A DNA stretch of 64,000 nucleotides, taken from the NCBI GenBank assembly GCA_001295935.1, contig LJHX01000164.1, positions 1-64,000 on the forward strand. Direction: 5' to 3'. Below are positions 5,306 to 40,281 of the stretch, piece by piece. The first letter of the stretch is position 1. Each line of letters starts with the position of its first letter. This stretch comes from an alpha proteobacterium AAP81b. GTDB taxonomy: Bacteria; Pseudomonadota; Alphaproteobacteria; Sphingomonadales; Sphingomonadaceae. The notes below the pieces were generated by a model. The model ran no database searches. It had not been told where the DNA came from and saw only the letters and a list, made by a program, of their open reading frames with translations. The position numbers and the translations under genes are program-made.

Positions 5306-6067
5306 ATGGCAGTGCCTCGGGCCGCGATCCCGATCCGCGCGCTCATCCCCAACGCCGTTACCGTGCTGGCGCTGTGCTCGGGGCTGACCGGCGTGCGCTT
5401 CGCCATCGGCGGCGAATGGGAAAAGGCGGTGGCGGCGGTGATCGTCGCCGCGGTGCTCGACGGCATCGACGGCCGCATCGCGCGGCTCTTGAAGGGCACC
5501 AGCCGCTTCGGCGCCGAGCTCGATTCGCTTTCCGATGTCACGGCGTTCGGCGTCGCGCCGGCGCTGATCGTCTATCTCTGGTCGCTGCAGAATGTGCCGG
5601 GCTTCGGTTGGGTGCTGGCCCTGGCGCACGCCGTCAGCTGTGCCTTGCGGCTGGCGCGCTTCAACGCCGGGCTCGATACCGAAGGCGCCCCGCACAAGCG
5701 CCTCGGCTACCTCACCGGCGTCCCGGCGCCGGTGGGTGCGGCGCTCACGCTCAGCCCGTTGTTCCTGGCCTTCTGGATCGAGCCGTTGCTGCTCGGCGAG
5801 ATGGCGGCGCGCGCCGGGCTGGTCGGCGCGGTGACGCTGGGCAGCGCGGCGCTGATGGCGTCGAACCTGCCGACCTACAGCTGGGGGGCGGTACGGCTGC
5901 GCCCCGCCTGGCGGCTGCCGGCGCTTGCCGGAGTCGGGCTATACGCCGGGGCGCTGTTCTCCGCGCCATGGATGACCTTGACGCTGACGACGCTCGCCTA
6001 TGCCGCCACCATCCCGTTCTCGGTGCGCAGCTATGCCAGGCTCAAGCGTCGCGAAGCGCTTGGCTGA
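5306..6067 (+). CDS. pssA: CDP-diacylglycerol--serine O-phosphatidyltransferase
   Basis: A 253-aa multi-pass membrane enzyme that condenses CDP-diacylglycerol with serine to phosphatidylserine, the substrate of the preceding psd. The CDP-alcohol phosphatidyltransferase signature is clear: DGIDGRIAR followed by GAELDSLSD (around residues 52-73, pattern DGxxAR-x8-GxxxDxxxD). The gene lies 14 nt after psd. Its last 37 nt overlap, on the opposite strand, the end of a small membrane-protein gene. Confidence 0.95.
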   Translation: MAVPRAAIPIRALIPNAVTVLALCSGLTGVRFAIGGEWEKAVAAVIVAAVLDGIDGRIARLLKGTSRFGAELDSLSDVTAFGVAPALIVYLWSLQNVPGFGWVLALAHAVSCALRLARFNAGLDTEGAPHKRLGYLTGVPAPVGAALTLSPLFLAFWIEPLLLGEMAARAGLVGAVTLGSAALMASNLPTYSWGAVRLRPAWRLPALAGVGLYAGALFSAPWMTLTLTTLAYAATIPFSVRSYARLKRREALG

Positions 6068-6198
6068 GTGGCGGGGCGCCGCGGCACGCCGCGCAGCGCC
6101 AGGGTGAGCACGCCGAAACGCTCGCCGATCATTGCCGCGACACAGGCATAGGTTGCGGCGAAGGCGATCATGGTCAAGACTGTCAGCAGCAGGGTCAT
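6031..6198 (-). CDS. 55-aa single-pass membrane microprotein under SOS (LexA) control
   Basis: Too short for usual gene calling, but well supported. ATG at 6198 has AGGAAG six bases upstream, and TAG lies at 6031-6033. The protein starts MTLLLTVLTMIAFAATYACV and has one hydrophobic segment (about residues 3-24), then GERFGVLTLALRG and a basic, Pro/Ser-rich tail with several Arg. Upstream sits a near-consensus sigma70 promoter whose spacer carries a perfect GTTC-N7-GTTC LexA box, 31 nt before the ATG. I know no family for it. By architecture it resembles damage-induced small division inhibitors such as Caulobacter SidA, but that function is inference only. Confidence 0.7.
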   Translation of the reverse strand: MTLLLTVLTMIAFAATYACVAAMIGERFGVLTLALRGVPRRPATQPSASRRLSLA

Positions 6199-6224
6199 GG
6201 CTGGCTTCCTGTGGTTGGATCGGG

Positions 6225-6253
6225 ATAATGTTCCCGTTATGTTCTGGTGTCAA
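6225..6253 (-). promoter_or_regulatory. sigma70 promoter of the 55-aa membrane protein
   Basis: Read on the minus strand: -35 TTGACA (6248-6253, perfect consensus), a 17-bp spacer, and -10 CATTAT (6225-6230). The spacing is ideal and the element points at the 55-aa gene, leaving a leader of roughly 20-25 nt. The LexA box occupies the spacer and touches the -10, the classic position for full repression. Confidence 0.8.
6230..6244. promoter_or_regulatory. LexA box (GTTC-N7-GTTC)
   Basis: The plus strand reads GTTCCCGTTATGTTC, a perfect match to the alphaproteobacterial LexA operator GTTC-N7-GTTC. It lies within the promoter of the 55-aa gene on the minus strand. The acyl-CoA synthetase start is 86 nt away on the plus strand, so an effect on that gene is possible but less likely. 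Confidence 0.8.
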
Positions 6254-8158: not shown

Positions 8159-9229
8159 TTAAAACAACGCCAGTTGATCGCTCGGCGGGCGAAACCGGCT
8201 GCAATCGAGATCGGCGCGCGGCGCATTGAGCCCGAGTTTGGCGACTGCCTTGTCGGAGCGCTGGCGCATCAGCGCCGCATAGGGTCCCTGGGCGCGGAAG
8301 CGGTCGAAGAAGCGCGGGTCGTTATCCTTGCCGCCGCGCATTTCCTGGATGTGCGCCATCACCCGTGCGGCGCGGTCGGGATAGTGCGCGGCGAGCCAAT
8401 CGCGGAACAGCGGCGCGACTTCATGCGGCAGCCGCACCGGCATTGAGAAGGCGCCGACCGCACCGGCGTCGGCCCCCGCCGCCAGGATCGCTTCGATCTC
8501 ATGGTCGTTGATCGCCGGGATGACCGGCGACACCGAGATCCACACCGGCACGCCGGCGGCGCTGAGTGCCTTGATCGCCGCGATCCGCCGCCGCGGCGCC
8601 GGGGCGCGAGGTTCGAGGGTTCGCGCGATGTCGGGGGTCAGCGACGTCACCGACAGCATCACCGCGGCAAGACCCTTCGCCGCCATCGGCGCCAGCAGGT
8701 CGAGATCGCGCGTCACCCGGTCGGATTTGGTGGTGATCGTCACCGGATGGTCGCAGGCGCTGAGCACTTCGAGGATGCCTCGGGTGATCCGCCAGTCGCG
8801 CTCGATCGGCTGATAGGGGTCGGTATTGGTGCCGAGCGCGATCGGCCGGCATTGATAGCCCTTCTTCGCCAGCTCGCGCTTCAGCAGCGCCGGGACATCG
8901 GGCTTGGCGAACAGCTTGCTTTCAAAATCGAGCCCTGGTGACAGGCCGTGAAAACCATGTGTCGGCCGCGCGAAGCAATAGATGCAGCCATGTTCGCAGC
9001 CGCGATAGGCGTTGATCGAACGATCGAAGGGAATGTCGGGGGAGGTGTTGCGGGTGATCGCGGTCTTCGGCCGTTCGACCGTGACGGTGGTGCGCAGTGG
9101 CGGCGGGGCGCCATCGACAAGGCTTTCGGCATCGCGCCAATCGCCATCGGCCTCGGTCGCCAGCGCGTCGAAGCGCTGCGAGGCGGCGTTGAGGGTCGCG
9201 CCGCGGGCAGGGGGCAGGCGAGTCGGCAT
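8159..9229 (-). CDS. PA0069-family radical SAM protein (spore-photoproduct-lyase-like)
   Basis: About 356 aa from the ATG at 9229. The radical SAM cluster motif CEHGCIYC (CxxxCxxC) follows RSINAYRGC; the segments TNTDPYQPIERDWRITR and TITTKSDRVTRDLDLL are typical of the PA0069/Rv2578c family. These proteins are distantly related to spore photoproduct lyase; their substrate is not established. In-frame ATGs also exist at 9241, 9259 and 9322, but a LexA box covers 9254-9268, so transcription should start downstream of it. I therefore favour 9229 or 9241. Placement under LexA fits a DNA-damage role (inference). Confidence 0.85.
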   Translation of the reverse strand: MPTRLPPARGATLNAASQRFDALATEADGDWRDAESLVDGAPPPLRTTVTVERPKTAITRNTSPDIPFDRSINAYRGCEHGCIYCFARPTHGFHGLSPGLDFESKLFAKPDVPALLKRELAKKGYQCRPIALGTNTDPYQPIERDWRITRGILEVLSACDHPVTITTKSDRVTRDLDLLAPMAAKGLAAVMLSVTSLTPDIARTLEPRAPAPRRRIAAIKALSAAGVPVWISVSPVIPAINDHEIEAILAAGADAGAVGAFSMPVRLPHEVAPLFRDWLAAHYPDRAARVMAHIQEMRGGKDNDPRFFDRFRAQGPYAALMRQRSDKAVAKLGLNAPRADLDCSRFRPPSDQLALF

Positions 9230-9253
9230 CGGAAGCATCATGCCGGAATAGCG

Positions 9254-9268
9254 GAACATATAAAGAAC
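9254..9268. promoter_or_regulatory. LexA box (GAAC-N7-GAAC) between radical SAM and patatin genes
   Basis: The plus strand reads GAACATATAAAGAAC, i.e. GTTC-N7-GTTC on the minus strand. It lies 24 nt upstream of the preferred start of the radical SAM gene (minus strand) and 63 nt upstream of the divergent patatin-like lipoprotein (plus strand). The AT-rich N7 contains a plausible -10 on either strand, so LexA could repress one or both genes. I could not identify convincing -35 elements. Confidence 0.7.
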
Positions 9269-39843: not shown

Positions 39844-40281
39844 ATGCGCCGCCTGATCCTCGCCTTGCTGCTTGCCGCCGGCCCGGCGATCGCCCCGGTC
39901 GCCGCCGCCGTGCCGGCGCCGCGCAAGGATGCCCTCGTCCTCGCCAGCGGCACCCAGGTCATCGACGACAAGGTCGGCACCGGGGTGGAGGCCTTCCCCG
40001 GCAAGCTCGTCGTCGTTCACTACACCGGCTGGCTTTTCGAAAATGGCGGCAAGGGCAAGCAGTTCGATTCGTCGCGAACCCGCAACGAACCCTTCGATTT
40101 TCCGCTGGGTGCCGGCCAGGTCATTCAGGGCTGGGACGAGGGCGTCGCCGGCATGAAGGTCGGCGGCAAGCGCACGCTGATCATCCCGGCGCAGGCCGGC
40201 TATGGCGACAATGGCGCCGGCGCCGATATTCCGCCCGGCGCGACGCTGATCTTCGAGATCGAACTCATCGACGTGCGTTAA
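39844..40281 (+). CDS. FKBP-type peptidyl-prolyl cis-trans isomerase, secreted
   Basis: A 145-aa periplasmic folding helper. A Sec signal peptide (LILALLLAAGPAIAPVAAA) is followed by a single FKBP domain: VVVHYTGWLFENG, KQFDSSRTRNEPFDFPLG, VIQGWDEGVAGMKVGGKR, IPAQAGYGDNGAG and PPGATLIFEIEL. All the aromatic pocket residues expected for activity appear present. Start at 39844 gives the signal peptide directly. Confidence 0.94.
   Translation: MRRLILALLLAAGPAIAPVAAAVPAPRKDALVLASGTQVIDDKVGTGVEAFPGKLVVVHYTGWLFENGGKGKQFDSSRTRNEPFDFPLGAGQVIQGWDEGVAGMKVGGKRTLIIPAQAGYGDNGAGADIPPGATLIFEIELIDVR

Follow-up and report, generated by a model that had tools for sequence, protein, structure and literature searches.

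A predicted LexA-controlled small membrane protein gene behind pssA in most sampled genera of the sphingomonad family

The minus strand of the window, as we call the whole 64,000-nt stretch of DNA analysed here, carries an SOS small membrane-protein gene of 55 codons (6031-6198, stop included), recognized by profile matches and by purifying selection in its relatives. That this gene is real, lineage-wide and, as predicted from its sequence, encodes a LexA-controlled membrane microprotein of 55 aa is well supported. As the best single explanation of its role, to which we give a probability of roughly one in two and which draws on analogy with known systems, the protein would delay cell division. 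Sphingomonads are widespread in soil, in water and on plants, and the gene, apparently undescribed, may be the missing brake on their division while DNA is broken. It is one defined gene that keeps its place behind pssA in most of the genera sampled, open to deletion or induction in laboratory strains.

Organization of the locus

All promoter elements are read on the minus strand. A -35 element, TTGACA (6253-6248), is followed at a distance of 17 bp by a -10 element, CATTAT (6230-6225), a near-consensus arrangement that bears out the promoter claimed in an earlier note on this DNA. The same note had placed a perfect LexA box inside the spacer. A perfect match to the predicted operator, GAACATAACGGGAAC (GAAC-N7-GAAC; 6244-6230, reading GTTC-N7-GTTC on the plus strand), is indeed there, but it does not lie wholly within the spacer: it fills the spacer end and has one base in common with the -10 element. 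The ribosome-binding site AGGAAG (6210-6205) precedes the ATG at 6198, from which the frame runs to a stop ending at 6031, in agreement with the 55-codon gene and ribosome site described in the note. The convergent neighbour, pssA (5306-6067, plus strand), lies outside the SOS gene and is given here as context. Its product is a CDP-alcohol phosphatidyltransferase, phosphatidylserine synthase (Pfam PF01066, E 5.1e-22; TIGR00473, E 4.5e-26, below that model's own cut-off). The 3' ends of the two genes overlap tail to tail, in antisense, over 37 bp (6031-6067; minus strand for the small gene).

Box, promoter and open reading frame could all be products of chance in a GC-rich genome, and the frequency of the bare box is what speaks for this. 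Three boxes were found in the 64 kb for 1.02 expected, which is only mildly unusual, and the genome-wide count (60) is near that of a reversed control pattern (54). The composite pattern TTGAC-N(2-7)-GAAC-N7-GAAC has one match in the window, and 300 simulated first-order Markov windows together have one. What decides against chance is the position of the box in other genomes, described below.

The box as probable operator of SOS genes

The host genome contains lexA (TIGR00498) and recA (TIGR02012), both matched above cut-off. In this genome recA, lexA, uvrA and the genes for a UvrD/PcrA-type helicase, a Pol IV-type polymerase and a PA0069 radical-SAM protein each have a perfect GAAC-N7-GAAC box upstream; for the helicase, the polymerase and UvrA, the identities come from matches that are fragments or fall below model cut-offs. 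Two more box-adjacent genes, without an NCBIfam match, resemble imuA and mmcB by eye only. lexA was searched for in nine family genomes, and in each of them the match has a perfect box upstream at a distance of about 90 bp or less. GAAC-N7-GAAC is most likely the LexA operator of the host organism, as the genes behind it suggest, and induction of the small gene by DNA damage is predicted with high confidence.

The window holds two other matches to the box. One, GTTCTTTATATGTTC (9254-9268, minus strand), immediately precedes a PA0069-family radical SAM gene (8162-9241, minus strand; NF033668), which is likely another LexA target. The other, a GTTC-N7-GTTC match at 40076-40090, has a GC-rich spacer, falls within long open frames and is probably due to chance.

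The small gene in the genus of the host

Queried with the single protein, 12 of the 23 other genomes of the genus gave matches (13 of 98 genomes overall, the host's own included). Profile A1, with 13 members, matched all 24 genus genomes, again including the host's own, and, in a sample of 397 genomes, two from other genera. The small gene has one or more perfect boxes upstream in 26 of 26 A1 loci (24 of 24 in the genus); pssA is convergent in all 26, and an acyl-CoA synthetase gene is divergent in 25. One genus locus (L062) has the small frame shortened to 40 aa and another (L022) has a box without TTGAC before it.

In half of the genus loci (12 of 24: L016, L017, L018, L019, L020, L061 and L063-L068) two perfect boxes are found 23-25 bp apart. 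Paired boxes upstream of the small gene may allow tighter or cooperative repression.

Distribution in the family and beyond

The earlier note had made its reading depend on conservation of the frame and of the upstream box among sphingomonads. Such conservation was found. A scan with a PssA alignment yielded 469 loci, the best 80 of which (hereafter, named loci) cover Polymorphobacter, Sandarakinorhabdus, Sphingomonas, Sphingopyxis, Sphingobium, Rhizorhabdus, Allosphingosinicella, Parasphingorhabdus, Chakrabartia and unnamed relatives. Among these best 80 of 469, 78 have a perfect box in sense orientation within 420 bp behind the pssA stop. The same 420 bp contain a box in the opposite orientation in six of the 80, and the rest of the 80 loci (474,042 bp) contains four sense-orientation boxes and one opposite. 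In 76 of the 80, the box is followed by a frame of 55-82 aa with an N-terminal hydrophobic helix. In 69 of these 76 relatives a perfect TTGAC is found in the 35 nt preceding the box, and in 59 it ends 2-6 nt before the box. As to the exceptions, L102 and L140 are without a perfect sense-orientation box, L140 having a one-mismatch box plus frame; L108 and L131 have the box and no frame of this description, that of L131 being 35 aa long.

A pssA match was obtained in 146 of 149 family genomes, and from these a second set was drawn: 92 loci of other genera of the family, one genome per genus, some of them from the same strains as named loci. Here the perfect box is found in 85 of 92 loci, and box plus frame in 82. 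Four loci (L201, L221, L246 and L265) show a one-mismatch box plus frame. In three others (L206, L227 and L263) a box was found with no qualifying frame, and L222, L282 and L236 showed no box and no small gene behind pssA, the last locus having 380 bp to the contig end. The genomes that harbour L222, L236 and L282 (G046, G101 and G148, respectively; 2.1-2.6 Mb) keep lexA with its own box. Because the gene is missing despite a boxed lexA in these three, and because the box stands without a qualifying frame in the three preceding ones, the small gene seems dispensable in some lineages. At L206 (G030 contig 1, about 2543435-2544031), an in-frame TGA interrupts the pssA match.

Outside the family the box was not found at pssA. 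None of the 29 pssA loci drawn from the order's other families has it (two of them offer 60 bp or less behind pssA), nor does any of the 28 non-family loci in a class-wide sample; this sample consists of 30 loci out of 39 genomes with pssA, and the two loci that belong to the family both have the box. With the criteria relaxed to one mismatch with TTGAC nearby, 85 of the 92 family loci qualified and none of the 29 order loci or 28 class loci; when a transmembrane ORF was demanded as well, 80 of the family loci remained, again with none from the order or class.

The concentration of boxes behind pssA, set against the four sense-orientation boxes in the remaining sequence of the same loci, and the empty outgroup loci, even with one mismatch, contradict the chance reading. 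Positional conservation rules out a chance ORF and promoter, and the probability that box, promoter and ORF came together by accident is negligible. We also considered the divergent acyl-CoA synthetase gene as the one that the box serves. This was rejected, since the synthetase was found within reach in 17 of the 80 named loci, as against 78 for the box. Altogether, the gene is present in most genera sampled of the family; the earlier note, which had suggested an undescribed gene in sphingomonads, was right about its presence and the lack of a known family, and understated its scope.

Coding selection and codon choice at the pssA end

Codons 2 to 38, which lie outside the pssA overlap, were compared in 23 disjoint pairs picked by nucleotide identity. 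In all 23, pN is smaller than pS (means, 0.174 vs 0.429), a relation found in 8 and 2 of the 23 pairs when the frame is shifted; with disjoint pairs picked by protein identity it holds in 18 of 19. Where it does not overlap pssA, the small frame evolves under purifying selection.

The overlap itself, claimed in the earlier note, is kept in 73 of 76 named relatives and in 81 of 82 others; it is a conserved feature and not an accident. Such constancy is what one would expect if the antisense transcript were the useful product, SOS transcription converging on pssA and lowering phosphatidylserine synthesis, with the frame secondary. Two observations speak against it: the frame is selected where it does not overlap, and six members have no overlap with pssA at all (L072, L119, L133, L140, L246 and L283). 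We regard this explanation as very improbable. Ala is the last residue of all six of these members, preceded by another Ala in five, while in most members the C-terminal Ala and the stop codon fall inside the overlap. The idea that conservation of the small protein is a mere shadow of pssA was likewise rejected, given selection on the N-terminal part and the alanine ends of the six non-overlapping members.

Codon usage at the 3' end of pssA was assessed by anchoring on the PssA C-terminal motif. The motif could be located in 78 of the 92 family loci and in just 2 of the 28 from the outgroup, which leaves the outgroup control unusable. The PssA Arg whose codon would carry the antisense stop is encoded by AGG in 41 of 41 cases, as opposed to 2.7% of 1,064 earlier Arg codons in the same genes. 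The next PssA Arg, antisense to the penultimate Ala, is CGG in 64 of 68 (background, 32.5%). AGG at the antisense-stop position is a rare Arg codon; the end of pssA in the window (6034-6067) provides an example. From these sequence biases, codon choice at the PssA 3' end appears to serve the small gene; a conserved DNA-level element at the end of pssA is the alternative. The locus would then be an example of two antisense-overlapping protein genes in which the codon choice of one is apparently shaped by the other.

Anatomy of the protein and searches for known families

The product had been described in the earlier note as having one N-terminal transmembrane helix and a basic tail, and this matches both the charge pattern of the 76 named relatives and the single helix of an AlphaFold2 model. 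Net charge before the helix is absent in 75 of 76, and averages +6 after it. The model, calculated on A3 (the profile made from the rest of the family, 36 members), has one helix at residues 2-35 with coil after it (mean pLDDT 80, pTM 0.44, with high confidence over the first 30 residues). The C-terminal residue is Ala in 74 of 76 named relatives (Ala-Ala in 56) and in 79 of 82 members from other genera (Ala-Ala in 76); the window copy ends in SLA, not AA. Length is 70-82 aa in 59 of the 76 named relatives and ranges between 52 and 117 aa in the members from 82 other genera; family-wide, the small protein is usually of 70-95 aa, compared to 55 aa in the window.

Sequence similarity across the family is weak. 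In a 60-genome sample of the order, A3 matched 8 of 14 family genomes and missed the host's own. Its matches in these 60 genomes number nine, one of them a weak one in another family (G082, E 0.002), whose pssA locus (L194) has no box. The first 40 residues of the genus profile A1 nonetheless match those of A3 (hhalign probability 94, E 1.4e-7). It is position, operator, anatomy and this profile-profile match that suggest the unity of the family.

Scans of the window protein and ten relatives against Pfam and NCBIfam returned no family, just matches far below cut-off. They include no SulA domain (PF03846) and no LysM domain in Pfam, and no SidA- or DidA-type family in either collection. As to a link with phage lysis, the NCBIfam holin match (E 0.2) is below cut-off, and a search of 36 members against PHROGs gave single-member matches to four families (best E 0.036), an Rz-like spanin among them, too little to count as a link. 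A search for the small protein on plasmids gave nothing useful. With the predicted structure, Foldseek found no match in the PDB.

In the sequence search of the PDB the best matches were two AcrZ sequences, with non-significant E values of 0.36 and 0.61. AcrZ resembles the small protein in having a single N-terminal helix and a short tail. These matches and the similar layout, together with a fixed neighbourhood that includes psd near pssA in 80 of 80 named loci, would be in keeping with a small regulator of some other membrane complex, for example one that tunes an efflux pump as AcrZ does or that, during damage, modulates an envelope or phospholipid enzyme. However, the AcrZ match is within noise, there is no obvious reason for such a regulator to be under SOS control, and several known LexA-controlled small membrane proteins of like layout are division inhibitors. 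We consider it a minor possibility.

A different role is suggested by membrane-active peptides. DinQ is an SOS-regulated, toxic single transmembrane peptide and TisB a LexA-controlled, depolarising one, as described in parts of PMC3567139 and PMC8145889. The small protein is hydrophobic too, and carries a LexA box, so that it might act by depolarisation leading to dormancy after damage. A conserved basic tail and a C-terminal Ala past the helix do not fit such a peptide, and this role is unlikely.

Discussion

We favour a small membrane protein that would be released from LexA control upon DNA damage and delay cell division. LexA biology and the location of the box between the -35 and -10 elements argue for the first part: LexA bound to GAAC-N7-GAAC at this place would block RNA polymerase, and once damage occurs, RecA-stimulated cleavage of LexA would free the near-consensus promoter and the small protein would be made fast. 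The protein would span the inner membrane with a single N-terminal helix, its N-terminus facing outward and, according to the positive-inside rule, the arginine-rich tail in the cytoplasm. By analogy with SidA, DidA and YneA, the helix could then dock on the late divisome (FtsW/FtsI/FtsN), delaying division; no binding surface can be named, because sequence similarity across the family is weak. A search for SulA found no match in 40 family genomes (the E. coli control was positive), so another division brake is plausible. Once repair is over, the C-terminal alanine, Ala-Ala in most relatives, may act as a protease tag by which the protein is cleared. The Ala-Ala end suggests turnover by a cytoplasmic protease, with ssrA-type tags as the analogue.

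A joint reading can be put together from all these elements. It would make the protein a family-defining sphingomonad SOS checkpoint factor forming its own sequence family, with a cytoplasmic tail, an Ala-Ala destruction tag and an antisense overlap with pssA constraining both genes, that halts septation and damps phosphatidylserine synthesis. If it were true, induction would couple DNA damage to membrane growth through convergent transcription; in its entirety it is quite doubtful. The simpler reading, a LexA-controlled protein that delays division, remains the one we prefer.

Titles and abstract beginnings in PMC, among the matches listed, contained no description of a sphingomonad small membrane protein under LexA control; the small gene may already figure in an in-silico regulon compilation, in RegPrecise or in subscription papers, which lie beyond this literature search. 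Nor was a sphingomonad mechanism for pausing division during DNA repair described among the PMC matches listed. The one sphingomonad transcriptome found to include an SOS response, the anoxic RNA-seq of Sphingopyxis granuli TFA, has lexA, recA and imuAB-dnaE2 induced; the SOS part of its table lists lexA and recA along with imuA-type genes and further repair genes, and a small membrane protein is not among them (PMC6472365).

Comparison with known systems

SulA of Enterobacteria is an SOS-controlled division inhibitor, as proposed here for the small protein; it differs in being cytosolic and in belonging to PF03846, the family unmatched in the 40 genomes mentioned above. Closer in layout are proteins with one membrane helix. 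According to part of PMC13396833, YneA of Bacillus is an SOS-induced one-helix membrane protein that has a LysM domain, involves FtsW and stops late division. YneA and ChiZ join the helix to an extracellular LysM, whereas the sphingomonad protein has no LysM match in Pfam and its basic tail is predicted to be cytoplasmic. SosA of Staphylococcus, likewise an SOS-induced one-helix membrane protein that stops late division, has its C-terminus outside the cell (part of PMC6851548), unlike the tail predicted here. It is found at one chromosomal location across staphylococci, and its extreme C-terminus has been proposed as a proteolysis signal (same part of PMC6851548); the sphingomonad protein, with its fixed place behind pssA and its proposed C-terminal tag, would resemble it in both respects.

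Two comparisons can be drawn, by description only, with Caulobacter crescentus, from part of PMC4211646. DidA is a 71-aa protein with one predicted helix, induced by damage independently of the SOS response through DriD, and acting through FtsN. It has the single helix in common with the sphingomonad protein, and its ORF also overlaps another annotated frame (PMC4211646, in part); it differs in its DriD-driven, SOS-independent expression, where the sphingomonad gene has a LexA box in its promoter. SidA is a LexA-controlled inner-membrane protein that targets FtsW and stops late division. Its 29 aa compare with the 52-117 aa of the 82 other-genera members of the present family, which have a basic tail ending in Ala. 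What SidA shares with the small protein, whose helix and box are predicted from sequence, is an alphaproteobacterial origin, a LexA box and the form of a small membrane protein with one helix.
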